The notes beneath the pieces were generated by a model that was given only the letters and a program-made list of their open reading frames with translations, was not told where the DNA came from and did no database searches. This document shows, piece after piece, positions 5,921-34,632 of a stretch of DNA of 56,399 bases. Numbering within the stretch: position 1 is the stretch's first letter; each line of letters opens with the position of its first letter. The DNA comes from Methanobacteriota archaeon (GTDB lineage: Archaea > Thermoplasmatota > Poseidoniia > Poseidoniales > Thalassarchaeaceae). A program made the position numbers and the translations under genes. Location of the stretch: assembly GCA_004195715.1 (NCBI GenBank), contig PSPX01000004.1, forward strand, positions 1-56,399, written 5' to 3'.

Positions 5921-6094
5921 TAGAATCAATAATCTAACAATCGGCGCTCTATGGAGACAGGGAATAATTCCTTAATTCGCCTCTGCGGCAACTGAAGTTT
6001 TCCTCAATCATTAAACACCCTCCATTAGGAAGAGTGAATCCCTTGCGTGGGACAAGGACAAATCGAATCGGAATCGACGAAGGAGGGGGAGGGT
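5921..6094 (+). promoter_or_regulatory. Promoter and leader region of the ribonucleotide reductase gene
   Basis: This 174-base AT-rich gap follows the OsmC stop. ATCATTAAAC around 6007-6016 is a plausible TATA element, which would place transcription start near 6038. A long purine-rich Shine-Dalgarno run (AGGAGGGGGAGGG, 6081-6093) sits directly before the ATG at 6095 and decides that start over the GTG at 6047. No riboswitch-like conserved element (for example a cobalamin box) was recognised by eye. Confidence 0.5.
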
Positions 6095-9000
6095 ATGCAA
6101 ACTAGAACCAAAGCAGAAACCGAAGCCGGAATCGCAGAATCCGGGATGGTCATCGAGCGTCGGTTCACAACTGCCGGTGATGACCCGTTCGACACCTTCG
6201 ACTGGATAGAGATGGATGTCGAGATTAGGAACCCGGACGGTTCTATAGCAGATATCATTGAGGGGGTGAAACTTCCCTCGGGCTTCACTGGCGTACCTGG
6301 AAAGGTGTGTGCTCAGAAGTACCTGCGCAAGGCCGGCGTTCCGAAGCACCTACGCAAGGTGCCAGAGGATAATGTGCCCGTCTGGTTGCAGCGTAGTGTA
6401 CCGGACCACGAGAGGCTTCAGACTGTAGAAGCCGAAGAGAGAATGAGTGGAGAAGATGACGGGAGGAATCTCTTCCGTCGACTCGCAGGGACCTGGACCT
6501 ACTGGGGCTGGAAGTACGGCTACTTCGCCAGCGAGGCTGATGCCCGCGCCTACTTCGACGAGATGTGTTACTTGATCGCAAGCCAGCGCTCGGCACCTAA
6601 CAGCCCCCAGTGGTTCAACACCGGACTGCATTGGGCCTATGGCATTGAAGGGCCAGCTCAAGGCCACTCGTTCATCGACCCTGCCAGTGGCAAACTGGAG
6701 TACTCAAGTAACGCTTACGAGCACCCTCAACCTCACGCCTGCTTCATCCAATCGGTATCCGACTCTCTAGTCGGTGGCTCGGAGTCAATTATGGGCCTGT
6801 GGAATCGAGAAGCGTTGCTGTTCAAGTACGGCTCAGGAACCGGTTCGAACTTCTCCAGAATTCGAGGAGCGGGTGAGCCTCTCTCGGGCGGCGGGAGCTC
6901 GAGTGGATTGTTGTCCTTCCTCAAGATAGGCGATAGGGCCGCCGGGGCGATAAAGTCCGGTGGCACCACCAGAAGGGCAGCCAAGATGGTCACTCTGGAT
7001 CTCGACCACCCCGATATCGAGGAGTACATAGACTGGAAGTCGACTGAGGAGGAAAAGGTCTCAGCACTAGTGATAGGGAGCAATATCCTACAGAAGCACG
7101 CTAATGTCCTGATGGATGCAATTTGGAAATACGGCGACGACGAAGGCCGATTCGACCAGAACACCAACCTCGATCTTCGCAGAGCCATGGTGCGAGCCAT
7201 CGGAGAACATGTTCCACAACCTCACATCCAGAGGATACTGGACCTTGCGAAGCAGGGATGGAAAGGTGTCGACTTCGAGGTTCTGGACACTGACTGGCAG
7301 GGTGAGGCCTACCTTACTGTATCTGGTCAGAACAGCAACAACTCGGTCCGCGTCCCAAATCGGTTTATGGAATCAGTCAAGGAGGGTGGTGATTGGAACC
7401 TCTACTGGAGGACCGAACTGGAGAGTTCAGAGGCAGAGGGAAGGGATCCAGAACCGTGCAAAACCCTAGATGCGGGAGAATTGTGGAACAAGGTGGCGTA
7501 CACTGCTTGGGCCTGTGCTGACCCCGGTGTCCAATATGACACCACCATCAATGAGTGGCACACCTGCCCCGAGGGAGGGAGAATCAACGGCTCCAACCCC
7601 TGCTCCGAGTACATGTTCCTCGATGACACTGCCTGCAATTTGGCCAGTATCAACCTCCTACACTACTACGACCTTGACACCCAGACTTTCCAGATAGACG
7701 ACTTCAGACATAGTGTCAGACTTTGGACCACGACCCTCGAGATCAGCGTTCTAATGGCGCAGTTCCCCTCTGAGGAGATAGCGCGCAAGTCGTACGATTA
7801 TCGTACTCTGGGCCTGGGCTACTGCAACATAGGCTCTCTGTTGATGCACATGGGTATCCCATATGATGACGAACGAGCCTATGCAATATGTGGCGCAATC
7901 ACCTCCATCATGTGCGGCGAGACCTACTCGACTAGTGCGGAAATGGCTTCGATACTCGGAACCTTTTCTGATTACGAGAGAAACTCCGAGCACATGCTGA
8001 AAGTGATGAGAAACCATAGGAGGGCTGCTTACGATTCGCCGGTGGACGAATACGAGGGGCTCACTGTTCCGCCCATGGGAATTAACCCGAAGAAATGCCC
8101 GAAGGACCTACTCGAGGCGGCGAGGGAATCCTGGGACCGCGCGGTCAGAGATGGAGAAGAGCATGGATACAGGAACGCGCAGACCACGGTCATCGCACCA
8201 ACTGGTACGATCGGCCTGTTGATGGGAGCTGACACCACCGGCGTCGAACCTCAGTTCTCACTCGTGCAGTTCAAGACGTTGGCTGGAGGCGGTTCGCTGA
8301 GAATTGTCAACAAGGGCGTACCGAGTGCTCTTCGTCGACTTGGCTACTCCGATAGAAAATGCAAGACGATTGAAGAGTATATCGTGGGCACCGGACGACT
8401 CAGCGGATGCCCCACGCTCCCAGTGAATCGCATGAAGGAAGTTGGCTTCAGTGCCGAGGACCTTGCTGTTGTAGAGAACAAAATGGACGATGTGTTCGAT
8501 TTACACTCGGCCTTCGCACCGACTCTGCTCGGAAAGGAACTGTGCACCGGCGCCCTCGGAATGTCAGAGGAGCAATATGAGGATGCCTTCTTCGATACCC
8601 TAGGCTTCCTCGGCTTCACCTCCGAGGAGATAGAAGCGGCTCAAGCCCATATCTTTGGGAATCTGACCATCGAAGGAGCGCCTGGGCTCAAGGAAGAACA
8701 TCTGGCCGTGTTCGACTGCGCCACTCCGTGTGGGGCGAAAGGAACGAGGTCAATCGCGTGGCCTGCTCACGTGAAGATGATGGCTTCTGCGCAGCCGTTC
8801 ATCTCGGGTGCGATTTCCAAGACCATTAACATGCCATCCAACTCAACAGTGGATGAAGTCAGAGAGGCTTACAACCTCAGTCACACCACCATGAACAAGG
8901 CATGTGCGGTTTATCGCGACTGCTCAAAATTATCGCAACCCCTGATGAACCAACTCGTCAAGGACACCGAACTGGCCGAAGAGGTCACTGAAGAGGAAGA

Positions 9001-9739
9001 ACTGGTAGAGAGAATGGTCGTGGAGACTGTCAAGGCTCTGCCCCTTCCAGAATCCGCGGCTCAGCCAGTGGCTGAGTCATTCGTGAAGTTCATCGCAACC
9101 AGACGGACTCTGCCAGATAGGAAGAGAGCTACTTCCACTAAGGCTAGGATAGGTGGGCACAGCGTCCGTCTGATCACCGGTGAGTACCCGGATGGTAAAC
9201 TAGGCGAGATTATTCTGGTGACCTCTAAGGAGGGTGCGGCTTGGAGGGCCATGCTCAATCAGTTCGCAATAGCCGTATCGATTGCTTTGCAACATGGCGT
9301 CCCACTAGAGGCTTTCATCAAGGTGTTCACTTTCCAGAAATTCGAGCCTAGTGGGCCAGTTGAAGGCGGTAGTGGGCGGGTCAAGATGGCTTCGAGCCTG
9401 GTCGACTGGATCTTCAGAGAGTTGGCCATCGACTACGCCGGTCGGGACGACCTCGCCCACGTTGGCGTCGAAGATTTCGACCAATTCTCAATTAGCAAAC
9501 CCGAGATTACTGAAGAAGGAGTGATGCGGGTCGAGGGTGAGAAAAGGGAAGTTCAGATGACTCTCGATGCGACTGTCGCTCCGCTGCAAGAGAAAGATGC
9601 TGAGAGTCGTGCGCGGCAGGCGGCACGCGAGAGGGGTTTCACCGGGGACATCTGTGATGAGTGCGGAAGCAGCCAGATGGTGCGCAACGGAACCTGTCTG
9701 AAGTGCAATGCCTGCGGCTCTACAACCGGTTGCTCGTGA
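6095..9739 (+). CDS. nrdJ: Adenosylcobalamin-dependent (class II) ribonucleoside-diphosphate reductase
   Basis: Class II ribonucleotide reductase makes deoxyribonucleotides using a B12-derived radical and so works with or without oxygen. In this 1214-residue protein, NSPQWFNTGLHWAYG (residues ~169-183) and GSGTGSNFSRIRG are class II landmarks. NPCSE (~500-504) carries the active-site Asn, Cys and Glu, and APTGTIGLLMGADTTGVEP (~700) is the phosphate-binding loop region. A TSCPD domain follows in the C-terminal third (ITGEYPDGKLGEIILVTSK). The protein ends in a Cys-rich tail (CDECGSS, CLKCNACGSTTGC) that relays reducing equivalents. No separate radical-generating small subunit is nearby, as expected for class II. 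It is convergent with the TFB gene, nine bases away. Confidence 0.95.
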   Translation: MQTRTKAETEAGIAESGMVIERRFTTAGDDPFDTFDWIEMDVEIRNPDGSIADIIEGVKLPSGFTGVPGKVCAQKYLRKAGVPKHLRKVPEDNVPVWLQRSVPDHERLQTVEAEERMSGEDDGRNLFRRLAGTWTYWGWKYGYFASEADARAYFDEMCYLIASQRSAPNSPQWFNTGLHWAYGIEGPAQGHSFIDPASGKLEYSSNAYEHPQPHACFIQSVSDSLVGGSESIMGLWNREALLFKYGSGTGSNFSRIRGAGEPLSGGGSSSGLLSFLKIGDRAAGAIKSGGTTRRAAKMVTLDLDHPDIEEYIDWKSTEEEKVSALVIGSNILQKHANVLMDAIWKYGDDEGRFDQNTNLDLRRAMVRAIGEHVPQPHIQRILDLAKQGWKGVDFEVLDTDWQGEAYLTVSGQNSNNSVRVPNRFMESVKEGGDWNLYWRTELESSEAEGRDPEPCKTLDAGELWNKVAYTAWACADPGVQYDTTINEWHTCPEGGRINGSNPCSEYMFLDDTACNLASINLLHYYDLDTQTFQIDDFRHSVRLWTTTLEISVLMAQFPSEEIARKSYDYRTLGLGYCNIGSLLMHMGIPYDDERAYAICGAITSIMCGETYSTSAEMASILGTFSDYERNSEHMLKVMRNHRRAAYDSPVDEYEGLTVPPMGINPKKCPKDLLEAARESWDRAVRDGEEHGYRNAQTTVIAPTGTIGLLMGADTTGVEPQFSLVQFKTLAGGGSLRIVNKGVPSALRRLGYSDRKCKTIEEYIVGTGRLSGCPTLPVNRMKEVGFSAEDLAVVENKMDDVFDLHSAFAPTLLGKELCTGALGMSEEQYEDAFFDTLGFLGFTSEEIEAAQAHIFGNLTIEGAPGLKEEHLAVFDCATPCGAKGTRSIAWPAHVKMMASAQPFISGAISKTINMPSNSTVDEVREAYNLSHTTMNKACAVYRDCSKLSQPLMNQLVKDTELAEEVTEEEELVERMVVETVKALPLPESAAQPVAESFVKFIATRRTLPDRKRATSTKARIGGHSVRLITGEYPDGKLGEIILVTSKEGAAWRAMLNQFAIAVSIALQHGVPLEAFIKVFTFQKFEPSGPVEGGSGRVKMASSLVDWIFRELAIDYAGRDDLAHVGVEDFDQFSISKPEITEEGVMRVEGEKREVQMTLDATVAPLQEKDAESRARQAARERGFTGDICDECGSSQMVRNGTCLKCNACGSTTGCS

Positions 9740-10740: not shown

Positions 10741-10860
10741 TCTGATAGTAGAAGAAAAAAGTACAAACGCCTTACTGGGCGGCTGTATAAGGCAATACGA
10801 CCATTGAGAATGATGAAATAGAGCGCGGCCTTGACGTTAATCGAAAGAGGTGGTGTAACC

Positions 10861-12858
10861 TTGACCGAACAGTGGCCCCCGGCACAGATAGCCCTGACCC
10901 CCGGTAAGAGAGTGCTCTTTCTCACCAAGGATCTCGAACTGATACGCAGGCAGCTCTACGAGGGCCTCGATTTGCGTATGGTTGATCTCGGGGCCGACGA
11001 TCTGCTCGATGACATCAACACCGATGTCATGACTCCGGCTTGGGTTTGTTTCGACCACGAGCCGGCAATCATAGCCGAGAACGCCTACGCCGGCCTAGTT
11101 CACGAAGGGAGGCGCGTGTTCGAGCCTCGTGCATTGCTGGACGGTGGCTTCGAAGCCATAGTATCCGGACACCGTAAGGGCACAGGGTCAAGCCGCGAGA
11201 CTGCCGCTCAGTGCGAGCGCTGGTCGGGAATCAGGATTGTTATCGCGGCGTCCTTCGCACCGATTCACGAGCGGAACAACATCAACCTTGGTCAATTGAT
11301 GGGCGACTACGGGATGCTGGAGAGGCTGCAATCCGGTGAGAGTATCTCGCTGAACGAGTTCACCTCTGAGTACGACCCGGTGACCAGACTGATTATTGAA
11401 AACGGTGGCATCCTGCCGTTCGCGAAGAGTCTCAGAGAAGGGGATATCAGCCTCCCTGAGTTGAAGACCGAGCCGCGACCGATGACTATGGTGGAGAAGA
11501 TGATCACGAACAAACTTCTGGGTCAGAACGGCGCGGCGCGCTATGTCAAGCCCGGTGACGCCGTGCTCTCGCAGGTCGACGGTGGTTACTCGCATGAGTT
11601 CACAACCGCACAGGTCCACGAGTTCCTCAAGCAGGAATACGGCAACGATTACTCGCTTCCCAATCCATCGAAATACGCAGTCTTCGAAGACCATTTGCTG
11701 TACGCCACCGGAGTACCTAGGTTTGGTCGTTTCACAGAGAAGATTCAGGCCCTGCGAGATATGCAGCGAGTGTTCCAGCAGCATACCGGGGTGCGTGACT
11801 ATTCCGCGGAGGACGGTGTCAGCCCTGGCATCTGCCATCAAGTCGCCAGAGAGGAATTCATCGATGTTGGCGATTTTATTCAAGCAACCGATTCGCACAC
11901 CTGCATGGGAGGTGCTACGAACGCACTAGCCTACGGTGTCGGCTCGACCGAGTACGCCAACCTCCTGTACAACCAATTCGCCTTTGTCCAAGTTCCAGAG
12001 AGTATTCGCTTCGAACTGACGGGTAACCTAGACCCAGGGTGCACAGCCAAGGATGTCATACTCCATATCCTCTGGAAGTATGCCGCTGAGTCCGAGACAC
12101 TTGACCGTAGTATGGAGTTTGGTGGCCCCGGACTTGCCAGTTTGTCGATGGATGAGAGGGCTACTCTGTGCAACATGGCCACTGAGTGTAGTGCTAAGAC
12201 TGGGATATGCGAACCAGACAACCTCACTGTAGATTGGTTGATGAACCGCAGATCGGGACTGAGTGAGGCAGAGGTGCGCAGCGCCTTCGTGCTGCCGGAC
12301 GAGGGGGCGGAGTATCACGGTGGAGTACACACCATCGACCTAGCACAGATCCGTCCGATGGTCGCACATCCCGGCAAGCCCGATGAAGGAATCCCCTCTG
12401 ACCCGACAAATGGTGCTTACATAGACGAAATTGGCGAGGTCAGAATAGACATCGCCTACGCGGGTTCGTGTACTGCTGGTAAGGATGATGATTTCGCCTA
12501 CTACGCACAAGTCACCGAGGCGGCCCTCGAAGCAGGTCTGACAATCCCTGAAGGTGTCGACTGCTACATCCAGTTCGGCTCAAAGACGGTGAAGAGCCTG
12601 TCCGAGAAGAACGGTTGGAGCGAGATGTTCGAGCGCGCTGGTGTCACGCTAATCGACCCCGGGTGCGGTGCCTGTATAGGAGCCGGGCCCGGAATTAGCG
12701 ATGTTGCGGAGCAGATTACAATCTCAGCAATTAATCGCAATTACCAGGGTCGCTCTGGGCCGGGCAAGCTGTATCTGGCAAGCCCCCTGACTGTGATGGT
12801 CAGCGCCTTTGTCGGGAAGATTACGGCGTGGCATCCAGATATCTTTGCACAGGGTTAA
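10861..12858 (+). CDS. Aconitase-family hydratase with N-terminal swivel domain (probable aconitate hydratase)
   Basis: This 665-residue protein belongs to the aconitase/isopropylmalate isomerase superfamily but has its domains in permuted order. The swivel domain comes first, with the catalytic-Ser loop GTGSSRE at about residues 106-112. The three [4Fe-4S] domains follow. Cluster ligands are Cys537 in YAGSCTAGKDDD and Cys602/Cys605 in DPGCGACIG, and ATDSHTCMGGATNALAYGVG is the substrate-binding signature. Typical AcnA is about 890 residues with the swivel domain last; AcnB has it early but carries an N-terminal HEAT domain absent here. The TTG at 10861 is chosen because GAGGTGGTG (10847-10855) lies just before it; a TTG at 10831 lacks such a site. 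Citrate-to-isocitrate conversion is likely given icd nearby and no leu genes, but isopropylmalate or homoaconitate activity is not excluded. Confidence 0.85.
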   Translation: MTEQWPPAQIALTPGKRVLFLTKDLELIRRQLYEGLDLRMVDLGADDLLDDINTDVMTPAWVCFDHEPAIIAENAYAGLVHEGRRVFEPRALLDGGFEAIVSGHRKGTGSSRETAAQCERWSGIRIVIAASFAPIHERNNINLGQLMGDYGMLERLQSGESISLNEFTSEYDPVTRLIIENGGILPFAKSLREGDISLPELKTEPRPMTMVEKMITNKLLGQNGAARYVKPGDAVLSQVDGGYSHEFTTAQVHEFLKQEYGNDYSLPNPSKYAVFEDHLLYATGVPRFGRFTEKIQALRDMQRVFQQHTGVRDYSAEDGVSPGICHQVAREEFIDVGDFIQATDSHTCMGGATNALAYGVGSTEYANLLYNQFAFVQVPESIRFELTGNLDPGCTAKDVILHILWKYAAESETLDRSMEFGGPGLASLSMDERATLCNMATECSAKTGICEPDNLTVDWLMNRRSGLSEAEVRSAFVLPDEGAEYHGGVHTIDLAQIRPMVAHPGKPDEGIPSDPTNGAYIDEIGEVRIDIAYAGSCTAGKDDDFAYYAQVTEAALEAGLTIPEGVDCYIQFGSKTVKSLSEKNGWSEMFERAGVTLIDPGCGACIGAGPGISDVAEQITISAINRNYQGRSGPGKLYLASPLTVMVSAFVGKITAWHPDIFAQG

Positions 12859-12940
12859 GAGCGATCCTCGGCCGGAGACTTCTATCCAAAAGAGGCCCCG
12901 TGCCATTCGGGTATCGGGAGGACCTGACGGAGGTTTGCGA

Positions 12941-15013
12941 ATGAGCGATGAAAAACCACTAGCCGGGAAACAGAAGCAGATTGCGATAAGCGAATTCTTC
13001 GAAAAGAACAAGCATTTCCTGGGGTTCGACTCTCTACAGAGATCCATCATCACGGCTGTCAAGGAGGCCGTCGATAATTCTCTCGACGCCTGCGAGGAGG
13101 AACGGATACTCCCTGATATCAGAGTCGAAATCAACCGACTCAAGGATGACCGAATAGAGCTGATATCTCAAGACAACGGGCCGGGCATACCAAGAGGGGT
13201 CATCGAACACGTCTTCGGCAAATTCCTGCTTGGATCGAGGTTTCACGCAATCAGGCAGACCCGTGGTCAACAAGGAATTGGAATTACTGGAGTAGTTATG
13301 TACAGCCAACTCACCACAGGCTCGAAGACCACTGTTATTTCAAAGGTTGAAGGCGAGTCTTCGGCGGTCCGGGTCGACCTCGGTATTGACACGAGGAAAA
13401 ATAAAGCGATCAAGAGTGGAGAGAGTAGGGACGTCTGGATCGACGAGGTCACGGGCGAGGAAATCAAGCACGGCTTGAAGATACGGACCGAAATGAAAGC
13501 CAAATATCAACGAGGCAAGCAGTCGGTCTACCAGTACCTCAGGATGACTTCGATTGTCAACCCACACGCCACCATCAGCCTGACTGTAAAGGACCGTGAC
13601 GGGAGTGTAATCGAAGAAGGTCACTGGCTTCGCACCACCGACCGTCTCCCTAGGGTGGTAGAGGAAATCAAGCCCCATCCCCACGGCATCCACCTCGGTA
13701 CATTGCAAAGGATGCTACGTGAAGCAGAGGAGAGGAAGATGACTTCCTTCCTGAGGCACAACTTCTCCGGAGTCAGCATGAGGGCGGCCCGGGAGATCCT
13801 TGAGAAGGCGGGGCTTGAGGAGAGCAGGCAACCTCGCAGAATCAAGGCCGGGGAGGCTCAGGCCGTGCTCGATTCATTCCAAAAGGTCAAACTCTTGAAT
13901 CCGCCTACTGACTGTCTCTCCCCCATCGAGGACCTGCTAATCAAGAAGGGCCTATCGAAGGCGATTGATTCTCGCTTCGCCTCGACTGTTACCAGAGAAA
14001 CACGGGTCACTCAGGGCAACCCCTTCCAAGTCGAAGTCGGTCTGGTTTTTGGCGGAGATCTGGCCTCTGACAGCCCGATCGAGATCCTGCGGTTTACCAA
14101 TCGGGTGCCCCTGATGTACCAGCAGGGAGGATGTCTGCTCACGAAGGCGGTGGAATCTGTCGACTGGAAGCGCTACGGCCTAGATCAGCCAGGAGGTAGG
14201 GGGTTACCCAAGGGGCCAGCGGCCGTTCTCATTCACCTCGCCTCTACCAACGTCCAGTTCACCAGTGAGGCGAAGGAAGCTGTCGCTGCCAACGAGGAGG
14301 TATTAGGAGAAATCAGGAGGGCTCTGATGGAAGTAGGCAAGGGCCTGAGGAACCACCTCAAGAAAAGTTCGCAGAGGAAGAAGGCTCAAGAAAAGTTTGA
14401 GCTGATAAACGTCATTCTCCCTGAGATCTCACAAAAAACCTCGCAAATACTAGGCCGGGAGGAGCCTGATCTAGCGCCGATAATCACCCGGATTATGAAT
14501 GCGGTTTTCTGCGAGGAAGATCTTGGGTGGGACACAACGAGGAAACTGGCGACCTGTGATATCACCGTGTTCAACTACACCGCTCGAGCGCGGGCGTACA
14601 CAATCTTAGCCAAATGGCCCGAGAGCGAAACTGTCGCCATGGTGGACAACCCTCTCGGAGGTCGTAAGGAGACTCACGGTCTGTGGGCTTGGCGATTGGA
14701 CACGCTGGACCCTGGCTCCTCGGCGGTTATCTCGTTCACCGTCTCCGGCCTCAACAAGGGTGATTGGCCGGACATGGAAATCTTTTTCAGAGGCAATGGC
14801 GACATCATCGGAGCCACCAAAATTGACGAGAATCTACTCGATGAGATGAGAAACAAGGAGGCCCTTGATGCCGCGGCGGAAGAGGTGCGCAGCAAGGAAG
14901 ATCCTGTGATTGAGAATCTTGCTGAGAGAGCCGAAGAGGTGTTTCGGGTCCCAAATGACGAGGGTGTAATCGACATGGGGTCATTGACTCCAGATCAGGG
15001 GGTAGATGAATGA
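12941..15013 (+). CDS. top6B: DNA topoisomerase VI subunit B
   Basis: Subunit B is the GHKL ATPase of topoisomerase VI, which relaxes and decatenates DNA by passing one duplex through a break made by subunit A. The 690-residue protein has the N-box EAVDNSLDACEE (residues 42-53), the G1 box DNGPGIP (78-84) and the G2 box QTRGQQGIGITG (106-117). The H2TH domain (TSFLRHNFSGVS region) and the transducer domain follow. The ATG at 12941 (MSDEKPLAGK) with GGAGG at 12929-12933 is chosen over upstream in-frame starts that overlap the aconitase gene. Its stop overlaps the start of the subunit A gene by four bases, so the subunits are translationally coupled. Confidence 0.96.
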   Translation: MSDEKPLAGKQKQIAISEFFEKNKHFLGFDSLQRSIITAVKEAVDNSLDACEEERILPDIRVEINRLKDDRIELISQDNGPGIPRGVIEHVFGKFLLGSRFHAIRQTRGQQGIGITGVVMYSQLTTGSKTTVISKVEGESSAVRVDLGIDTRKNKAIKSGESRDVWIDEVTGEEIKHGLKIRTEMKAKYQRGKQSVYQYLRMTSIVNPHATISLTVKDRDGSVIEEGHWLRTTDRLPRVVEEIKPHPHGIHLGTLQRMLREAEERKMTSFLRHNFSGVSMRAAREILEKAGLEESRQPRRIKAGEAQAVLDSFQKVKLLNPPTDCLSPIEDLLIKKGLSKAIDSRFASTVTRETRVTQGNPFQVEVGLVFGGDLASDSPIEILRFTNRVPLMYQQGGCLLTKAVESVDWKRYGLDQPGGRGLPKGPAAVLIHLASTNVQFTSEAKEAVAANEEVLGEIRRALMEVGKGLRNHLKKSSQRKKAQEKFELINVILPEISQKTSQILGREEPDLAPIITRIMNAVFCEEDLGWDTTRKLATCDITVFNYTARARAYTILAKWPESETVAMVDNPLGGRKETHGLWAWRLDTLDPGSSAVISFTVSGLNKGDWPDMEIFFRGNGDIIGATKIDENLLDEMRNKEALDAAAEEVRSKEDPVIENLAERAEEVFRVPNDEGVIDMGSLTPDQGVDE

Positions 15014-17278: not shown

Positions 17279-18016
17279 GTGGTTGGTTTCGACGAGGCGC
17301 TCTCGATACTAGAAAACCCTACTAGACGTCAGATTCTCAGGAAATTGGTCAAGGAACCTCACTACCCTCTGCAACTTTCCGAGTTACTGAATGTAAGTCA
17401 GCAAGCGGTGGTCAAGCACCTCAAGGTCCTAGAGGAATCAGGGTTCGTGGATTCCGAACGTGTGCCATCAGAGAAGGGAGGTCCCCCGAAGAAGATGTAC
17501 AAGGTCAACCAGTCCTTCTCCCTGCGTCTCGACCTCGGACCTGATTTATTCCGCGCAGAGCACAGGAAGATACCAGCTGGAGGACCGATGCGCCTCTCCA
17601 ACAGATTGCCGCCAGAACTGAATGGGGTGGTCGACAGGCTGGGTACCCGACGCAAGCTCCCGATGGTGGAGGCTATGGGAGTGCTCTCGGAGTTGGACTC
17701 TGCTCTCGAACGGATAGACGAGCATCGTGACGCTGTGATAGCACTCCATCAGCAGGTGATGAGAAAAGTCTCCCCCAGCATCTCCGAGCAATCTGGATCC
17801 TATGAGGAGAGGCAGTTGGCCCACGCTATCATGAACCAACCCCGCAGGCCACTCGATTTGGATGCGTTCTCGCAGGGACTGAGAATCCAGTCGATGGACG
17901 CAGAGGAGATGATGGATGCTCTGCGCGAGCGTCTGATGCGTGATTTCGCGGCTAGCCGCGGTCGTCTCGTCGCGGCGCGCGAAGGGACGCCGTTGCCATG
18001 GTGGCTAGCACGTTAA
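17279..18016 (+). CDS. ArsR-family winged helix-turn-helix transcriptional regulator
   Basis: Residues about 5-75 form a winged helix. ALSILENPTRRQILRKLVKE is the typical ArsR opening helix pair, QLSELLNVSQQAVVKHLKVL the recognition helix-turn-helix, and VDSERVPSEKGGPPKKMYKV the wing. The remaining ~170 residues are mostly helical and charged without a recognised ligand-binding domain, and contain no CxC metal-binding motif, so a metal sensor is unlikely. The start is GTG at 17279. A perfect 17-bp palindrome lies immediately upstream, which suggests self-control, and the divergent membrane protein gene may share it. Its stop abuts the stop of the convergent giant surface protein gene. Confidence 0.85.
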   Translation: MVGFDEALSILENPTRRQILRKLVKEPHYPLQLSELLNVSQQAVVKHLKVLEESGFVDSERVPSEKGGPPKKMYKVNQSFSLRLDLGPDLFRAEHRKIPAGGPMRLSNRLPPELNGVVDRLGTRRKLPMVEAMGVLSELDSALERIDEHRDAVIALHQQVMRKVSPSISEQSGSYEERQLAHAIMNQPRRPLDLDAFSQGLRIQSMDAEEMMDALRERLMRDFAASRGRLVAAREGTPLPWWLAR

Positions 18017-21000
18017 TCAGAAGACCATGTCCTCATCGTCAAGGTTCGAAATCATACTGGACTTCTCGGCGTAGCGTATCTTTGCCTCCTCCCTGCGTCC
18101 CCACATGACCACTGCGACCACTCCTACTAGAGCGAACGTTGCGCCGAGAATTATGGTCGGCACTGTGTATTGGGCGATGATCTCGATTCCGACATCGAGA
18201 ATTCCTAAATTCGAGCCCATCTCCTTTGAGACCGATTGGATATTGTTGGTTTCATCGGTCTCGACAATTATGTTATCCGGATCCAAGACTACGACGACGT
18301 TGTGTCTTCCAGCCTTGACCATATACAGTAGAGCAATTGTGGGTGGGTCCTCGTTGGCACAGTCGGAACTAGGGTTGTCACAGGGCATTATCGCCTGGAC
18401 TATTTGCCGGTAAACGATGTTCTCCTCGTCGCACCCGTTCTTCTTGATGTCAGATTTAGTCTGGTCTACGCACAGGATGATGTTGACGTCAGTAGCGTGG
18501 GCGTTACCCTTGTTGAGGATTTGTACGTTGACGGAGAGCATCTCTCCGACCTCCCCTGTGTGGGCCGCAGCGAAGACGTCGAGGATGAAGAGGTCTGGTG
18601 CCCTGAGTCTCAGTTCAATGACTTGTTCGTTGGTGTCACAATTGGGCCGGTAGTTATCCGGCAAACCGTCTCCATTCGCGTCGAGGGTGCAGGAATCATC
18701 CCACACCGCAGTCTCATCGTGGTCACCGCCTGCTTCCGAGGAGCCGAATTCCGATACGACCTTGATTCCAATCTCTCGATTGTTCAGTGTAGCGGCTGGG
18801 TCAATCTGGATGATTACGACAATCTGTAGAGTCGAGTAAGCCTCCATCACCGGCATGGTGATTGCATTTGTCTGGGCGGACAGGTAGCAGCCTTCGGCAG
18901 GTGGGTCTTCACCCAGAATTTGTCCGACACATGGCCTCTCGATCGGATACTCGGTGTTGAAGTCCTCGAGCAATGCGTAGCTGATTGCCCAATTACCCAG
19001 CAGAGGCCCCATCGTAGGGGACGTCTGCCACGAATAACGGTCATCGCTGTCATAGAGGGTGTGATTGTGCAGTGTCGGTTGATCGTCCACATTACCGTGG
19101 TTGGTGATGTTTATGGTGAATCGGACAATTCTACCAGGGGCTGTGGACTTGATTCGGCTCTCAACCATCGGATCGACCTCTATCCGCATGTCATGAAACT
19201 CGACAATCTCAACCTGTAGTTCGAGGACGTCCCTCAGTCTGGTCCCCTCGTAGGGCTCCTCGCTCAGCACATGCAGGATTATGGTGTACTGGCCAGCGTG
19301 GGTCCTCTCTGGTACGTTGAGAAGGATAGGTATGGTCTGTGACTCATCACGGTCTAACTCAGTGAATAGAATCCGAGGGATATCAATATCCCAGACGTGC
19401 GATGCCCCAAATGTGTCGGTAATTGAGCCCACTGCTATGTCGTATCTGTCAGCACCGTTTCCTTCGTTGGAGACCGTGGTATCCAACTGGTACGTCTGTC
19501 CTGGATGCAGGGACAGAATGGTTTCAGGTACGCTGGCTTCCAAGTCGTACTCTTGGATGACGTTTGTCAGAAGGACCACGGAGTCTCTGACACGCTGCGC
19601 TCCCTCCAGATGAGCCTTGACGGTGACAGAGTCACCTAGACCGGCAGTAGCGTTGTACGGTGCGCACATGATGGCAGTGACAGTGTATGGGGTGTCGATA
19701 ATTGACCAGTAGCGCGGGGCGTTATCTGAGATCCCGTTCCCTCCGGGGGCTTCAGAGAAATCCAAATCCACCGTCCAGTGGTCGAACCTCCATGTCTGCT
19801 CGGAAATCTCGGGAGGTCTCTCCTCGGGGCCTCCCGGGGTCGTGAATATCAGATGGCCGGGTGTGAAGTGCTTGGTGACCTCGATATCGAACTCAGAGCA
19901 TTCGCCGGGCAAGACATACTGCGTCGTGTCTCCGAGATTGAAGACGATGTTGCCCGTGCTCTTGATCGAGACGTTTATCCAGAGTTCAAGAACATCGAAG
20001 GTACCTTGATCGATAGAGAGCACTGGCTCACCGGTGGACCAACCTTTCAGGTATATCACAAAGGTCCCGGGATCCTGTGAAGTCGGAACACTGACCTGCA
20101 GGTTCCTAGTCACCGACTGGCCGGGATCCAATGATAGCGACGTTGGGAATGTGAGACCCCAACCGAACGGCAGGGCCCATTCGACCTGCCCCTCTAAGGT
20201 AGATGGATCGTAAAACGCGAACGTATCGTATACGTTACCTGTATTGGTAACCGTTATCGAAAAGAACGCCGATTCACCCTGTTCGACATCCACCTGGAAG
20301 TGACTGGTGTCCAAGTTAATCCCGTGGACGACATCCATCAGCGTCAGAGTAATCCTGTCGTCCCTGATAGCCGGATCCTTGTAGGATATTGCAGTCACAG
20401 TGATCGAGGCCAATTCGTCTGAATGGGCCTGATATATCGAAGGGGCGCGGACGCGCATGTACATCGAAACCACGTCGCCGCCGCGCAGGAATACCGGTGT
20501 TGAGTCGAATATTGGTGTGTGGTTAGTGGTGAAGAAGAGTGTGGCCGTCCAATTGTTGGGAACGCCTTCCATAGTCACAGTGAAGGTATCGGCCACGAGC
20601 TCGGCGGGCCCGGGTGTGGGGTTCGAGATTGTCATGTTGTAGGTGGTCTGCTCGCCGGGTTCAATGGTGTGGTAGTAGGTCTCAGTCTCTGTGAGTGCTA
20701 CCTCGACTAGCCCAGTCAAGACGTGAACGTAGCACAGCGTGTAGGATCCACCATTGCTGACGTCGTTGCACTTGTTAGTGTCAGACCAAGCAATATGGGC
20801 CCCGCTTCCGAGATCATTGGCAAATGCTGGTGGTTGACCCAAATCGGGGACCGCAGGTGAGTTCGGACCGAGCTTGTCGGACTGCCACTCGGTAATCGGG
20901 ATGACTTCCCACGGGTCGACGATCCCTACAGCGAGCGAATTGAGAGGGAAGCCCGCAGGATAGTCGTCGTTGGTGTGATTCAGTCTAGTGTAAACGACAG

Positions 21001-23128
21001 TCTCGCCTTGGGTTCCGTTGGAGTTCTCCAACCATGTCAGGTGCACGTTATCGAATGAGTCAGTGATGATGGCTGGCATGTGCGAATTGGCGCCGAAGGG
21101 CCGATCAGTTGGAATTCCTTCGATACCTTCGACTTCTGAGATAGCTGAGTCGATAATCTGCTTGATTCCGTAGGTAGGTAACCCGTCAGAGGCTCCGTCC
21201 CACGCGCCCGCTCCTCTGAGTCGTAGTCTGGTGTAGTAAATCTCGTAGTTGACATCAATGTCAAATCCATAGGCGCGACCATCCATCCAAGCTAGATGGG
21301 TGTTACCGGAGGTGTCTACGGAGATTGCAGGATGTAGGCTGTATGCGTCGTTGAGTGTGATTCTGGTGTCGTTGACCACGACGAGGTTGCCGTATCCTAG
21401 GCCGTCGATAGAGGGCCCTAGATCCTCGATGTACCTGTCGGCCGTGGTGTCGACAAAGGTCCCTGAATCTCCCTTCTGCCAAGTCGGAGGTGGGTTCTCC
21501 AGCAGCGACAGAGGATCGAGTATGGTCATGTAGATCTCACGCGAATTATTTGTGGATAGGTAGACCATGGCCTCAACCATTAGCTGTAATTCAGCTGAAT
21601 TGGTGGCTGAAGTCGGGAAACTGTACATCTGACCCTCCGCATTGGTCAGACGGGTGTTTGAACCCGGGCAGGTCCTAGTGTTCAGGCTCACGAAGCCATT
21701 GGGGCACTGAGCTAGGTCCATCATGTGGGAGCCGACTTGGGTGGAGCCTGCGCCGAAGCCGGCTGCGAGCAGAGGGACGGGGATAATCCCCGCTATGACG
21801 CAGGCGTCGTGGGCCTCATTGATGCTCTGGGTGTCATCGGACTGCTGGGATGGGTCGCCGCCGTACGGACCCTCATCCGAGATTGGGATGATGATCTTGG
21901 TCGCGTTGGGGTTCCAGTGGTGGTCCAACTGGGTAGGCGGGTTGCCGGGCACATTGTTACTGACATCGCGCCAAGACAGGCAGGCCCAAGTGGAGCCAGG
22001 GCCCCAAAATTCACTGTAGTATCCCCCATCCTGCGGCAAGTTGACTGCGCCGTTGTTGTAAATAACCTCGGTGAGCTCTCTAATACCACCGGAGTCATCT
22101 CCTGGGGACAGGCCTAGAGGAGTTGCTCTTGGACCTTGGCTACCCGACCCACCGGTCTGGTATGCAGCGGCGCAATTACCGCTGGTAGCCGCACTCGGCC
22201 AGTTACCGCTGAGGGCATACAGGGTCTCGTAGACCGTCATGTTAGCTCGCAAGAGCATCGGCTTTAGTCCCTCGAAGTAACCACCGCTGGCGAAGTAGCC
22301 GCCATAGAAAACCACACACATGTCGGCCCACTCGGTGTTCATCGAGCCGGAGGTGTCTATCGGAGCAACCATCTCGACTTTTCCGCCGCGGGTGTCATCC
22401 CATACAATCTGAACGAAGTCATCGGCATCGACAGCGACATCGGGGTGCCCCTTGTGGCCGATGATTGGAGTGAGTAGGGTCTCGCCCACGGCGACTACAG
22501 CCTCACGGGACTGTAGGTCGGGTTCAATCATGGAGTAGTAAATCTGAGGTTGTTGGTAGAACTTGTCAAGCGGCTCAAACGAGTCCTCCCAGACGATGTG
22601 GGCGTTGTTCTCAGAATCGGTGTCTATGGCTGGCCAGTCGCGGTTCTGTGTGTGAACCGAGACTTCGAAGTCGTCGATGAGCGAAATCACGTTGTCGATA
22701 GCCGAGTCGCCACTCTGATCATCTTGAGATGGGTCAAGCATGGTGTAGAAGATAGTCCACTGAGCGGCTTTATCGGTCCAAGTGATATGCACATTGTCAC
22801 TACTGTCAACGCTAATGTCGGGGTGCCAAGCCCGATGTGCACCGGGGTTAGATATCTGGGTCTCAAAAATCAGTACATCGCCTCTGGGATTGTGCATCTG
22901 ATACCACAAGTGCTGGGTGTTGCGGCTCCAGACGAAGTGCACGTTACCCATCGAGTCGGCATCGGTAGCCACCATCTTATCGTTCGCTGCGCCCCCATTG
23001 ACAATCTGAATCGCGTCAGTCAAGACCACTTCACTAGCCTCAGCCTGCGGGAATTCGATTACCGCGAAAGTGCTCATCATCATCAAAATAACCATTGTTA
23101 CGCTGTTTCTCATTTTTGCAGTTTCCAT
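18017..23128 (-). CDS. Giant cell-surface protein: beta-propeller with nested VWA domain, NEW3/CARDB-like repeats, C-terminal membrane anchor
   Basis: This is a 1703-residue predicted secreted, membrane-anchored protein. A signal peptide (MRNSVTMVILMMMSTFAVIE, then AEAS) starts the chain. Seven repeats of a D-x(2-3)-G/N-x-H-h-x-W pattern follow (NVHFVWSRN, NVHITWTDK, NAHIVWEDS, FVQIVWDDT, NTHLAWMDG, NVHLTWLEN, GAHIAWSDT), as in a seven-bladed propeller. The fourth repeat is split by about 280 residues (~250-530) resembling a von Willebrand factor A domain, with the metal-site motif DTSGSM and a later IIIPISDEG strand. Several beta-sandwich modules follow that resemble NEW3/CARDB domains (for example VTNTGNVYDTFAF, VNVQILNKGNAHATDV). 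A C-terminal helix (IILGATFALVGVVAVVMWG) and a short acidic tail end the protein. The ATG at 23128 has GGAGG upstream. Adhesion or ligand binding at the cell surface is likely; catalysis is not indicated. Confidence 0.85.
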   Translation of the reverse strand: METAKMRNSVTMVILMMMSTFAVIEFPQAEASEVVLTDAIQIVNGGAANDKMVATDADSMGNVHFVWSRNTQHLWYQMHNPRGDVLIFETQISNPGAHRAWHPDISVDSSDNVHITWTDKAAQWTIFYTMLDPSQDDQSGDSAIDNVISLIDDFEVSVHTQNRDWPAIDTDSENNAHIVWEDSFEPLDKFYQQPQIYYSMIEPDLQSREAVVAVGETLLTPIIGHKGHPDVAVDADDFVQIVWDDTRGGKVEMVAPIDTSGSMNTEWADMCVVFYGGYFASGGYFEGLKPMLLRANMTVYETLYALSGNWPSAATSGNCAAAYQTGGSGSQGPRATPLGLSPGDDSGGIRELTEVIYNNGAVNLPQDGGYYSEFWGPGSTWACLSWRDVSNNVPGNPPTQLDHHWNPNATKIIIPISDEGPYGGDPSQQSDDTQSINEAHDACVIAGIIPVPLLAAGFGAGSTQVGSHMMDLAQCPNGFVSLNTRTCPGSNTRLTNAEGQMYSFPTSATNSAELQLMVEAMVYLSTNNSREIYMTILDPLSLLENPPPTWQKGDSGTFVDTTADRYIEDLGPSIDGLGYGNLVVVNDTRITLNDAYSLHPAISVDTSGNTHLAWMDGRAYGFDIDVNYEIYYTRLRLRGAGAWDGASDGLPTYGIKQIIDSAISEVEGIEGIPTDRPFGANSHMPAIITDSFDNVHLTWLENSNGTQGETVVYTRLNHTNDDYPAGFPLNSLAVGIVDPWEVIPITEWQSDKLGPNSPAVPDLGQPPAFANDLGSGAHIAWSDTNKCNDVSNGGSYTLCYVHVLTGLVEVALTETETYYHTIEPGEQTTYNMTISNPTPGPAELVADTFTVTMEGVPNNWTATLFFTTNHTPIFDSTPVFLRGGDVVSMYMRVRAPSIYQAHSDELASITVTAISYKDPAIRDDRITLTLMDVVHGINLDTSHFQVDVEQGESAFFSITVTNTGNVYDTFAFYDPSTLEGQVEWALPFGWGLTFPTSLSLDPGQSVTRNLQVSVPTSQDPGTFVIYLKGWSTGEPVLSIDQGTFDVLELWINVSIKSTGNIVFNLGDTTQYVLPGECSEFDIEVTKHFTPGHLIFTTPGGPEERPPEISEQTWRFDHWTVDLDFSEAPGGNGISDNAPRYWSIIDTPYTVTAIMCAPYNATAGLGDSVTVKAHLEGAQRVRDSVVLLTNVIQEYDLEASVPETILSLHPGQTYQLDTTVSNEGNGADRYDIAVGSITDTFGASHVWDIDIPRILFTELDRDESQTIPILLNVPERTHAGQYTIILHVLSEEPYEGTRLRDVLELQVEIVEFHDMRIEVDPMVESRIKSTAPGRIVRFTINITNHGNVDDQPTLHNHTLYDSDDRYSWQTSPTMGPLLGNWAISYALLEDFNTEYPIERPCVGQILGEDPPAEGCYLSAQTNAITMPVMEAYSTLQIVVIIQIDPAATLNNREIGIKVVSEFGSSEAGGDHDETAVWDDSCTLDANGDGLPDNYRPNCDTNEQVIELRLRAPDLFILDVFAAAHTGEVGEMLSVNVQILNKGNAHATDVNIILCVDQTKSDIKKNGCDEENIVYRQIVQAIMPCDNPSSDCANEDPPTIALLYMVKAGRHNVVVVLDPDNIIVETDETNNIQSVSKEMGSNLGILDVGIEIIAQYTVPTIILGATFALVGVVAVVMWGRREEAKIRYAEKSSMISNLDDEDMVF

Positions 23129-23241: not shown

Positions 23242-23874
23242 TCAGGCCCATTCGGAGGGATCGAAATCGCGACCGAAACCACCTGTCTCATCGGTATCTA
23301 TCTCACTCACCTCTGAATGCACTTCAGGTTGGCTGCCCCTGCTCTGGGCCTTCTTGGCAATCCAATCGTCAACCGGCCCGGGCTTGCCCACGCCGGGCCC
23401 GTATGCGAACTTGATTTTGTGAATCAAAGCGAGTTTGGTAAGCCAAAGATGGCGCATCGTATGCATGAACTCATTTTGTGACAGCCCATCAAACCAAATC
23501 GGTCGTGAGAGATTGAACGCCTGCAGCGGGCCGGGCACACCATGCTTCTTCTTGCCAACGTGAAGCACCCAGTCGAGATCTGCCTGAGTGAGGTGTATCC
23601 TAGTGTCGTGGAGCCACTTCTCCCAATCCCCGGCCTCATTCTCGAAGAGTTCCGTCATTTCGCTCTGCTGACCGTCGTCGACCCTAGTGACTGAGTATAT
23701 CAGAACCAGATTGCGGTTCTTCGGAATGACGACGTTGAACACATGACCCTGCTTCGTTGGAGGGTAACGGACATGCAAGTGGAGCATGGCCTGTTGATCG
23801 GCTACGTCTCGGGCTTCGAGGCGCTCGCTCTGCAGCCACTCGCGCACCCTGTCGCCGGCCTCGCGGGAGTTCAT
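23242..23874 (-). CDS. DUF2299-like cytoplasmic protein
   Basis: This 210-residue soluble protein has an alpha/beta pattern. The opening helix (AGDRVREWLQSERLEARDV) precedes beta strands MLHLHVRYPP, HVFNVVIPKNRNLVLIYSV and a central helical part. That layout resembles the archaeal DUF2299 family, but the assignment is tentative. The last ~45 residues are acidic and probably disordered. It starts 21 bases after the acyltransferase stop and so is the likely last gene of that minus-strand operon. The 113-base gap after it is very GC-rich near 23211-23240 and holds the promoter of the giant surface protein gene. No activity can be assigned. Confidence 0.65.
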   Translation of the reverse strand: MNSREAGDRVREWLQSERLEARDVADQQAMLHLHVRYPPTKQGHVFNVVIPKNRNLVLIYSVTRVDDGQQSEMTELFENEAGDWEKWLHDTRIHLTQADLDWVLHVGKKKHGVPGPLQAFNLSRPIWFDGLSQNEFMHTMRHLWLTKLALIHKIKFAYGPGVGKPGPVDDWIAKKAQSRGSQPEVHSEVSEIDTDETGGFGRDFDPSEWA

Positions 23875-31589: not shown

Positions 31590-33407
31590 TCATGCCTCAA
31601 AGGAGCACTGTGGATATGGGGACTGCATAGGTGGTAGGAAGAGGTCTGTGCAGTCACGGTTAACTGTGGACAATCCCAAGAGACTCGAAGAATCGAGATT
31701 TAGTGTTACAGGCATCATCGAGACTGGGCTTGGAACATAATCCTCACCAGTTTGAGTAATAATCAGGTTGATGGCATCACCGGAGGGGATGATTACATCC
31801 ATTCCGAAGAATTCCATTTTTGCGATTACCGTCTCTCCTGGAGTCAATATCTCACCATCACTACCTCCTGCATGGAATCTCAGGTCCATCACGGCATGCC
31901 CTAGATGCATGCCACTGCTTGCTTGGACCATTTCCACGAAGAGATGTCCACTACTTGCGAAAAGGGATATTGTGGCCTCAACGTGGAAAGTCGGGGTCCC
32001 AACAATGCGAGTCTCAACATCGAACTCGGGACACTCAACAATCAGACTGGAAGTCGCTGTGATTGTGTTGCTGCCACCTATCGAACAGGAGTCCATGTCA
32101 AAGTAAAGCCACTCTTGATCGGGAGGTGGATAGTTGGGTTCAACCCTCCATCCTCCTATGTTGTCCTGAACCTCGGCAATCAATCTGGGTTGGGGCCCCT
32201 TGTCCTTGAGGTAGAAATTGAACCATTCCAACATATCATCGGCCCAATCCCAACGCAGTGTATACGGGAATGCCTCGGCCCCCCGCCCGCTGTTCAGACC
32301 CTCGTGGCCGCTTCTGCGGTCAGGATAGTCGTGGCCCCATTGCCCGTAGAGGCCCTTGACATCAAAGCCGGCCTCAAGCAGAGTATTGTGTACTGGGAAA
32401 GCCATGTGAGGGTCAACGTTCCAATCCTGCAGACCGTGGATGATGTACACAGAGCCGTTGTAATTCTGCAGAGCTCTGGTCAGGAAGTGGCGCTCGGTCC
32501 AGTAGTCGCTGCCGGTCCACGCGAGATTGTCGCCGGTCAGATACGCCCCCACTCCTGCGTAGTATCCCTCGAAATACCCCTCACAAGCATTCTGGGCGTC
32601 CTCAAGGTCGCCGTCCAAACCAAAGCTGCCGTAGACGCCGTTGTGCATGATGGCACCACGCGCCTCCATGCTGCCATTACGCCACATCAGGTCATGAACG
32701 CCAATCAGTCCAGACATTGGCACTATGGTCTTCAGGTGATCTGATCCCATTGCTGCTGCTTCCCACGGTGTAGAGCCGTCATACGATTTCCCAATCACGC
32801 CGACATTCCCGTTCGAGAAGGGTGCGTCTCCGAGATATTCCACAGCAGCATGTATCCCCTCTTGCTCATCGAGACCCATGAGATCCATACAGTGGTTTGA
32901 CTCTCCAGTACCAAACACAGACACCTGAGCGACTCCGAAGCCATGCGGCACGAAGTTCTCTATTAGGAAACGACCGAGTCTATCTGCTGGAGTCAGGGCG
33001 TCAACATCACCGTCGTCGTAGTACGGTCCGATCTCGGCAATTACGGGGACTCGGCACTCCTCGGGTAACTCTGCGGCGTCCATGTCGCATCCTTCGATAA
33101 CAGGAAGCCACAAACCCATGTGGACTTCTGCGCCACCGGTGACTCCGGCACCGCCATCACTCGCAGTAATGGCTGGCACAGGGACATAGATTGAGCGAAC
33201 GGTGTCGACACCAAAAGAGCCGTTCCATGAGACTCGACTAAACACATCGTCGTCCTGATAGAACTTGTTGGATCGATCCTCGACGTCTGGGAGCCAGTGC
33301 TCGTACTCTGGCTCTCCTTGTAATTCGTCCTCGAAGCCAAAACAACCCGTTAGAGTAGAAGTGAGCAAGATGAGAGTTAGGAAGGAGCACCCCAATCGAG
33401 TTGCCAT
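31590..33407 (-). CDS. Lipoprotein hydrolase of the S15 / CocE-NonD family
   Basis: This 605-residue protein starts with a lipoprotein signal (FLTLILLTSTLTGC, Cys as lipid anchor), so it acts at the cell surface. It is an alpha/beta hydrolase of the X-Pro dipeptidyl-peptidase S15/CocE type. The nucleophile Ser is in GVIGKSYDGSTPWEAA, a likely catalytic Asp in HGLQDWNVDPH and His in GQWGHDYPD. A C-terminal jelly-roll domain (residues ~420-600) follows, as in the PF08530 type. It could cleave peptides or esters outside the cell. The ATG at 33407 comes two bases after the stop of the Trm5-like gene, with GAGGGTG inside that gene's end as ribosome-binding site. Confidence 0.88.
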   Translation of the reverse strand: MATRLGCSFLTLILLTSTLTGCFGFEDELQGEPEYEHWLPDVEDRSNKFYQDDDVFSRVSWNGSFGVDTVRSIYVPVPAITASDGGAGVTGGAEVHMGLWLPVIEGCDMDAAELPEECRVPVIAEIGPYYDDGDVDALTPADRLGRFLIENFVPHGFGVAQVSVFGTGESNHCMDLMGLDEQEGIHAAVEYLGDAPFSNGNVGVIGKSYDGSTPWEAAAMGSDHLKTIVPMSGLIGVHDLMWRNGSMEARGAIMHNGVYGSFGLDGDLEDAQNACEGYFEGYYAGVGAYLTGDNLAWTGSDYWTERHFLTRALQNYNGSVYIIHGLQDWNVDPHMAFPVHNTLLEAGFDVKGLYGQWGHDYPDRRSGHEGLNSGRGAEAFPYTLRWDWADDMLEWFNFYLKDKGPQPRLIAEVQDNIGGWRVEPNYPPPDQEWLYFDMDSCSIGGSNTITATSSLIVECPEFDVETRIVGTPTFHVEATISLFASSGHLFVEMVQASSGMHLGHAVMDLRFHAGGSDGEILTPGETVIAKMEFFGMDVIIPSGDAINLIITQTGEDYVPSPVSMMPVTLNLDSSSLLGLSTVNRDCTDLFLPPMQSPYPQCSFEA

Positions 33408-33408
33408 A

Positions 33409-34632
33409 CTATTCACCCTCAGAAGTTGTGGCTATCCATGCCTCGAAGGAGCAAAGTCGCAATGTGGAGCTGTAGTCACGCTTGATTCTTAACACGGGAT
33501 CAGGCATGCCCTCTAGACGATTTGGGAGTGCGGAGCGGATAGCGGCGTTAGCAGTGTCAATCTCTGATTCTGCTACTATCACTCTGCCTCTGATTAAGCT
33601 CGGGGATCGAGTGTCCAACAGTGGAACAAGAGATGGGAGGAGTTCGATGGTTCGATGTGGTAAGTTGACCAGTAGTAAGTCCCAGTTACCAGAAATTTGT
33701 GGATCCGATGGCAGGGAAGTGGCATCGGCCACCCCAACGAGTCTGTCAGGGTGAATTTGGGAGAGGGGAATGGGGTCACTAGGGTAGTCCCTGCCGTCCC
33801 AGCGACGCAGGTTGTCGAACAACATCTCGACGGCGTCGGGGTTGAGATCTGATGCGAGTGCTTCGCCCACCAAATCTGGCTCGCCGAGAAGTGTGGCGAG
33901 TGCCGGACCGACGCCGCAAAACGGGTCGCATACCCGCAATGGGCGACCGAGCAAGGAGTGAAGTTTCTTGGCGAGAACCAAGGTCTCGAGTCTTTCCGAC
34001 TGTAGTTTGGTGGAGAAGTATGCCCGGGTGGGGTCGCATAGAATGCTTCTTCCAGACTCTCTAACCATTACTCTGGTGCTAGTAATGTCATCAGGGATGT
34101 TCTCCGAGAAGATTACGTCGTCGCGACGCGCACCTATGATGGACAGGTCCCGGATTCTGAGTTCACCCAGCACCCCTCGATCAGACAGGACTAACCTGAT
34201 GTGGGGATGTGATTGAAGCTTGGCGGTGGCAATCTGCTGGGAGTAATCAGCGACCTCATCATCCAATCTCACGATCATCATGTCGCCGAAGAACTCGTGC
34301 GAAGATGGCCATGCCTCGCCGTGTCGCTCGACTGTCTCCTCACCAATCAACACCCTCAGATACTCCCACCAGTCACTGTCAGCTCTCTCATCGGGCTTGC
34401 CCTCGTGCTCCACAACCTCGAATTTTGCTAGACCTTCTGGCAGAGATAGAGGGGCGCCAAAATCTAGTGGTATAAGCCTAGAATCACCGTCCTCGGCCGG
34501 GAACACATGCATGGCGGGAGCGAGCAGGTCGTGCTCGCGAATCAGGCCTAAGGCCTGCTCCACCTGGCGATTAGGCACTGAGATATGGCGCATCACGTTC
34601 ATGATGTGCAGCGGGGCAGCCCGCTTCACCAT
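33409..34632 (-). CDS. Trm5-like tRNA (guanine-N1)-methyltransferase
   Basis: Trm5 methylates G37 next to the anticodon, which prevents frameshifting. The 407-residue protein has the layout of the family. DPTRAYFSTKLQSERLETLV corresponds to the conserved region before the Rossmann fold. VCDPFCGVGPALATL is the SAM-binding motif I, ASDLNPDAVEMLFDNL motif II, and LLVNLPHRTIELLPSL the catalytic N-L-P region. The chosen ATG at 34632 shares bases with the dph5 ATG at 34631 on the other strand; Met codons at 34602 and 34593 (MRHISVPNRQ) are realistic later starts. The substrate is inferred from the motif order. Confidence 0.8.
   Translation of the reverse strand: MVKRAAPLHIMNVMRHISVPNRQVEQALGLIREHDLLAPAMHVFPAEDGDSRLIPLDFGAPLSLPEGLAKFEVVEHEGKPDERADSDWWEYLRVLIGEETVERHGEAWPSSHEFFGDMMIVRLDDEVADYSQQIATAKLQSHPHIRLVLSDRGVLGELRIRDLSIIGARRDDVIFSENIPDDITSTRVMVRESGRSILCDPTRAYFSTKLQSERLETLVLAKKLHSLLGRPLRVCDPFCGVGPALATLLGEPDLVGEALASDLNPDAVEMLFDNLRRWDGRDYPSDPIPLSQIHPDRLVGVADATSLPSDPQISGNWDLLLVNLPHRTIELLPSLVPLLDTRSPSLIRGRVIVAESEIDTANAAIRSALPNRLEGMPDPVLRIKRDYSSTLRLCSFEAWIATTSEGE

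Follow-up and report, generated by a model that had tools for sequence, protein, structure and literature searches.

How a von Willebrand factor A (VWA) domain could be carried inside a single blade of a propeller, and what such a protein would do on the surface of an archaeal cell, is the question raised by the gene at 18017..23128 (minus strand) of the window, the 56,399-nt stretch of Thalassarchaeaceae DNA analysed here. Translation of the gene gives a predicted single-pass surface protein of 1703 aa in which a signal peptide, a propeller with a nested VWA domain, a beta-sandwich stalk, a transmembrane (TM) helix and a tail follow one another; full-length orthologs show 56-95% identity. We propose that the protein is probably a large cell-surface adhesin or ligand receptor that would use a divalent metal and that would have reached an integrin-alpha-like form independently. 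The putative signal peptide region (aa 1-32; 23033..23128, minus strand), assigned from hydropathy, has a hydrophobic core at about residues 8-26 (hydropathy above 1.5 at 8-28) and an AEA-S cleavage-like site. A second candidate start, an in-frame ATG at 23251, lies upstream of 23128 and either may be the true start; the METAKM start and the Met at residue 6 alike lie ahead of the signal-peptide-like segment. The window also holds ordinary large open reading frames, namely a B12-dependent ribonucleotide reductase (6047-9739, plus), an aconitase family protein (10831-12858, plus), topoisomerase VI B (12809-15013, plus), an X-Pro dipeptidyl-peptidase of the S15 family (31590-33416, minus) and UvrA (50821-53802, minus).

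The preliminary description of this DNA had counted seven propeller-type motifs, and a motif scan bore this out. Motifs of the form D-x-x-[G/D/N/F]-x-[H/Q]-h-x-W were found at residues 58, 108, 171, 234, 605, 690 and 772, compared to a mean of 0.006 and a maximum of 1 when this protein was shuffled 2,000 times. Blades 1-4, up to strand B of blade 4, occupy aa 33-249 (22382..23032, minus strand), and the region from strand C of blade 4 to blade 7, with the motifs at 605, 690 and 772, occupies aa 531-812 (20693..21538, minus strand). We modelled residues 33-830 with AlphaFold2 from 35 alignment rows, leaving out the rows of f2, the other Poseidoniales family (inferred to be Poseidoniaceae; Thalassarchaeaceae is f1). 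The model had a mean pLDDT of 68 and a pTM of 0.71, with most of blades 1-4 at 80-93 and mixed values, 35-90, from strand C of blade 4 to blade 7. In VIA-align, model residues 4-774 matched single closed seven-bladed propellers, and this span runs across the insertion, suggesting that the N- and C-terminal blades close around the insert. The matches included CylK (Z 30.7, 353 aligned, 2.9 A), YncE (Z 29.5, 299 aligned, 2.4 A), PLL-type lectins (Z 26-27) and the integrin alphaM headpieces 9t3y_A (Z 24.0, 348 aligned, 3.3 A) and 7p2d_A (Z 23.2, 353 aligned, 3.4 A). The aligned counts for integrin alphaM fit the propeller alone and so give no evidence of superposition of the I domain. Together, the predicted structure and the VIA matches support the proposal that the seven motifs form one closed propeller; searching Pfam, NCBIfam and the PDB directly by sequence returned no propeller or VWA family above cut-off.

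Since sialidases, glycoside hydrolases, polysaccharide lyases, PLL lectins and CylK appear among the Foldseek and VIA matches, we considered substrate capture or polymer processing, in which the propeller face would bind or cut polysaccharide and the VWA domain would aid docking. We regard this role as quite improbable, because the matches share a common propeller fold at ~10% identity, no enzyme family scored above the Pfam or NCBIfam cut-off and no enzyme active site was identified.

As the preliminary description had proposed, an insertion of ~280 residues separates the fourth motif, DADDFVQIVWDDT (234-246), from EIYMTILDPL (531-540), the strand that closes the blade, and the insert contains DTSGSM (258-263) and TKIIIPISDEG (410-420); sequence and model agree on this point. 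The model has a strand at 239-245, then the insert at ~250-530, then a strand at 531-537, which means that the insert (aa 250-530; 21539..22381, minus strand) is located, in the model, in the B-C loop of blade 4, between the second and third strands. Its N-terminal part was modelled as a strand (250-259), a helix (261-275) and a strand (298-308) followed by helices, its C-terminal part as a strand (410-413), a helix (436-446), a strand (449-454) and a helix (462-474), and its end as a short strand near 502 and a helix (508-525). In the full model this is the secondary-structure order of a VWA domain (beta1-DxSxS-alpha1 ... beta4-[S/T]D ... alpha7).

Pfam gave no direct VWA match on the insert, and the window's own genome had no match to the VWA family PF00092; the reason is the divergence of the insert from that family rather than absence of the domain. 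We therefore rely on an intermediate, the family f5, which is another Thermoplasmatota family. A profile of the nested insert recovered the f5 proteins L107 (E 7e-20) and L106 (E 8e-11), which score 25.1 and 23.8 bits, respectively, against PF00092 (cut-off 23.8). The insert profile aligned with a profile of five f5 VWA domains at a probability of 99.7% (hhalign, E 5e-27), and the PDB matches of the f5 profile were almost all VWA chains, with a collagen VI chain as the best match (E 0.0023), followed chiefly by I domains of integrins alphaL, alphaM and alpha2 (best of these E 0.006-0.01). Transitive homology through f5 and the secondary-structure order thus support the earlier identification of the insert as a VWA domain, while the model of the insert folded alone had a pLDDT of 53. 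Its best VIA match had a Z of 4.9 (134 aligned, 3.7 A), and the integrin alphaM I domain gave a Z of 3.1 (133 aligned, 4.5 A). The response regulators, GTPases and NmrA matched by the insert alone are generic alpha/beta folds retrieved with a low-confidence model, and we gave them little weight.

The f5 proteins carry the same VWA subtype, recognizable by DTSGSM...W, E-[S/T]-W and SDE-x-x-Y-x-G, in other surroundings. Unlike the propeller-nested form, the VWA domain of L107 is flanked by Big_7, Y_Y_Y and PKD domains; L153-L155 have no blade motifs, and the f5 VWA fragments are 188-226 aa long compared to 280 for the nested form. Some of these proteins are giants of 1,900-3,000 aa (L153:2827-11946, L155:3-5819 and L106:3-8741) and are a possible source of the VWA domain.

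The preliminary description had also called the domain metal-dependent, and here the outcome was divided. The DxSxS element of the metal ion-dependent adhesion site (MIDAS) is DTSGSM (aa 258-263; 22340..22357, minus strand), in which D258 and S260 were conserved in all of 100 distinct sequences and S262 in 98%. The SDE motif (aa 417-419; 21872..21880, minus strand), which contains the MIDAS Asp ending beta4 of the VWA domain, has D418 and E419 invariant in the same set, as are E373 and W375 of the E-x-W-G motif, present here as EFWGP (aa 373-377; 21998..22012, minus strand). In the classical MIDAS the fifth residue is a Thr. Its probable position in the insert, aa 374, varies among F, D, M, S, E, A and N in the 100 sequences, with an uncertain loop alignment, and it is T in the f5 protein L106 and S in four other f5 relatives. 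The DxSxS and the distal Asp are therefore present and the conserved middle-loop Thr is not. We infer from the conserved DxSxS and SDE that the insert would bind a divalent metal. The variable Thr position (F, D, M, S or E) would fit a VWA-like scaffold with no working metal site that serves protein-protein contacts only. We find such a scaffold very unlikely, given the invariance of D258, S260, D418, E419, E373 and W375 and the 98% conservation of S262, which neither neutral nor purely structural use would predict. The cysteines at 271, 319, 383, 443, 475 and 487 were 95-100% conserved in the 100 sequences, as expected of an oxidised extracellular domain.

The beta-sandwich stalk (aa 813-1640; 18209..20692, minus strand) follows the propeller. 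Pfam placed a NEW3 domain at 976-1025 (26.9 bits, cut-off 24.4) and a CARDB domain at 1511-1631 (48.9 bits, cut-off 22.7), both above cut-off, and a hydrophobic helix was located at ~1654-1678, so that the sandwiches and the membrane anchor anticipated in the preliminary description were both recovered. The NCBIfam family choice_anch_T (NF041740) matched 1156-1291 at 67.7 bits, just below its cut-off of 70; this family resembles the stalk only and is silent on the propeller/VWA head. The predicted TM helix (aa 1654-1678; 18095..18169, minus strand) has a hydropathy of up to 2.43 and aligns with a hydrophobic segment in 44 orthologs, and the short cytoplasmic tail (aa 1679-1703; 18020..18094, minus strand) carries a recurrent GRR...AE[KQ]SS[LM] motif that was seen, with some exceptions, across the same 44 orthologs of both families. 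Mean identity between f1 and f2 was 69% for residues 931-1050, 60% for the VWA domain, 60% for 813-930 and 56% for the blades. The NEW3-containing residues 931-1050 (19979-20338, minus strand) are thus the best conserved part between the families, above the VWA domain, suggesting that the latter is not the sole functional focus.

Of the 145 Poseidoniales genomes sampled, 138 encode the nested VWA domain, mostly in frames of ~1,700 residues, and these represent 21 of 21 genera. Among 292 genomes of the phylum, full-length matches were confined to f1 and f2; f3, a family of the same class, gave at most one weak match, and the rest of the sample gave fragments only. Proteomes outside the phylum were scanned with close-relative patterns only. 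The NEW3/CARDB-tailed protein, which we call A-type, is encoded by a gene that is largely single-copy across the order and occupies a conserved locus. Its upstream neighbour, a gene for a 210-aa DUF2299 protein (23242..23874, minus strand; PF10061, 49.9 bits), adjoins it at 55 of 60 f1 loci, 11 of 11 deep f1 loci and 21 of 21 f2 loci, and may be a functional partner. A convergent neighbour encoding an ArsR-type winged-helix protein (17279..18016, plus strand) was present at 55/60 f1 and 20/21 f2 loci, and genes for an acyltransferase, a HIT protein and an FAD oxidoreductase (the latter two named from inspection of their sequences) also travel with the A-type gene in both families. The neighbours shared by both families indicate that the A-type gene belongs to the core genome and has been passed on together with its locus. 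Neither this order-wide core status nor the paralogs and the integrin-alpha parallel set out below appeared in the preliminary description.

Several paralogs carry the same head, and none of them has the conserved neighbour genes of the A-type alongside. Type B (L065:6677-11908 and L066-L072) combines the propeller/VWA head with a tail that has no NEW3 or CARDB, and the window's own genome has a type B copy (G000:C3:30-2948). The type B tail contains ~20 repeats of the D-x-[D/N]-x-D-[G/N] type, which by eye resemble thrombospondin type 3 repeats (calcium-type). Type B proteins have ~255 further residues between the last strand (GGEMFLYP) and the last helix of the VWA domain, which is a third level of nesting. 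Two other paralogs, L109 and L157, are about as long as the NEW3/CARDB-tailed form; of these, L109 contains both domains and has DSSGGM in place of DTSGSM. Among the orthologs, L047:6929-12388 has more than 100 extra residues inside a later blade, between P0001 positions ~652 and 680.

These gene copies bear on the main rival to the adhesin or receptor reading, namely that the protein is a structural component of the envelope, an S-layer-like element or anchored pillar whose propeller and VWA domain would make lattice contacts with the metal as glue. A core, largely single-copy A-type gene at a conserved locus across the order would suit this role, as would the long stalk with its TM anchor. 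Propellers are also already a theme in archaeal surface-layer proteins, in which Jing et al. are said to have described them in 2002. Paralogs with different tails nevertheless share genomes, which is more like a receptor family than a lattice, and we consider the envelope role unlikely.

The paralogs also point to exchange of the VWA domain itself. The propeller windows of L061 (6899-11392) share 27-47% identity with the A-type and are mostly closer to the B-type, and its VWA core (300-509) shares 67-100% identity with the A-type compared to 48-77% with the B-type. In trees, placing the L061 propeller with the A-type was rejected (p-AU 1e-64), and grouping its VWA domain with the B-type was not rejected (p 0.088). 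Compared to the f2 A-type, L161 (2918-7228) shares 12-43% identity in most propeller windows and 73-93% in the VWA core; keeping its VWA domain outside the f2 A-type was rejected (p 0.002), and grouping its long-branched propeller with the f2 A-type was not (p 0.155). From these sequence comparisons, L061 and L161 are likely mosaics with a VWA cassette that arose in the two families independently. The trees support the mosaics in part, making cassette exchange likely rather than proven. For L161, fast divergence of the propeller beside a constrained VWA domain, with no exchange, is also possible. A doubtful and more far-reaching suggestion is that of an integrin-alpha-like family, evolved independently of animals, in which a metal-binding VWA cassette is swapped among paralogs and the TM helix couples binding to the conserved tail; if true, the family would be a dedicated system for adhesion to, and sensing of, particles and cells in the Poseidoniales.

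In the adhesin or receptor reading that we prefer, the beta-sandwich stalk would lift the seven-bladed propeller, and the VWA domain would bud outward from blade 4 at its B-C loop. The domain may hold a divalent metal through D258, S260, S262 and D418, possibly with E373 replacing the missing Thr, and the metal-bearing domain would bind an acidic group on an external partner. Candidate partners are a polymer on the surface of a particle or alga, a surface protein of another cell and a neighbour in the envelope. The TM helix would anchor the protein, and the conserved tail motif may link binding to a cytosolic partner.

The available parts of two accounts describe Marine Group II archaea as uncultured and abundant in the ocean (PMC6864105, PMC9723583), and for adhesion the corresponding parts of PMC6864105 and PMC6336850 mention only archaella and flotillin-like proteins. 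The protein offers a concrete, expressible candidate for the means by which these archaea touch particles, algae and each other. Literature searches that left most subscription journals outside their scope found nothing for Poseidoniales with von Willebrand and no description of the protein or of prokaryotic propeller/VWA nesting. Titles and abstracts on Poseidoniales with S-layer or surface protein named no such protein, and integrin-like, VWA domain, archaea and propeller together returned only work on yeast.

Known archaeal and bacterial propeller-repeat proteins (RIVW/LVIVD repeats; PDIAV_lipo, NF053835) likewise display tandem blades in surface proteins, and PDIAV_lipo matched residues 40-125 at 24.8 bits, far under its cut-off of 90. 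The available part of an account of RIVW/LVIVD-repeat surface proteins does not mention a nested VWA domain (PMC2447325). Like an integrin alpha chain with an alpha-I domain, the archaeal protein has an N-terminal seven-bladed propeller from which a VWA domain buds, beta-sandwich domains after the head, one TM helix and a short cytoplasmic tail. To our knowledge, a VWA domain inside a propeller is otherwise known from animal integrins. In a propeller the B-C loops share a face with the D-A loop, which in integrins bears the I domain, and the archaeal VWA domain would thus occupy a surface comparable to that of the integrin I domain. The two differ in their blades, which are FG-GAP/Cage repeats in integrins and D-x-x-G-N-x-H-h-x-W in the archaeal protein; FG-GAP and integrin families had no match in the latter (Pfam, E<=1). 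They also differ in the point of insertion, which is inside blade 4 here and between blades 2 and 3 in integrins (PMC3192720, PMC12422189), in which alpha-I has been reported only from urochordates onward (PMC4237329). A search with the integrin-beta family PF00362 matched 0/60 genomes of the class, and also no control genome. With a different blade type, a different insertion point and no beta subunit found in this search, which was blank in the control genomes as well, the integrin-alpha-like layout looks, from sequence and model, like convergence that arose independently. The solution of a propeller with an inserted VWA domain thus exists outside animal integrins, which bears on why such nesting works.
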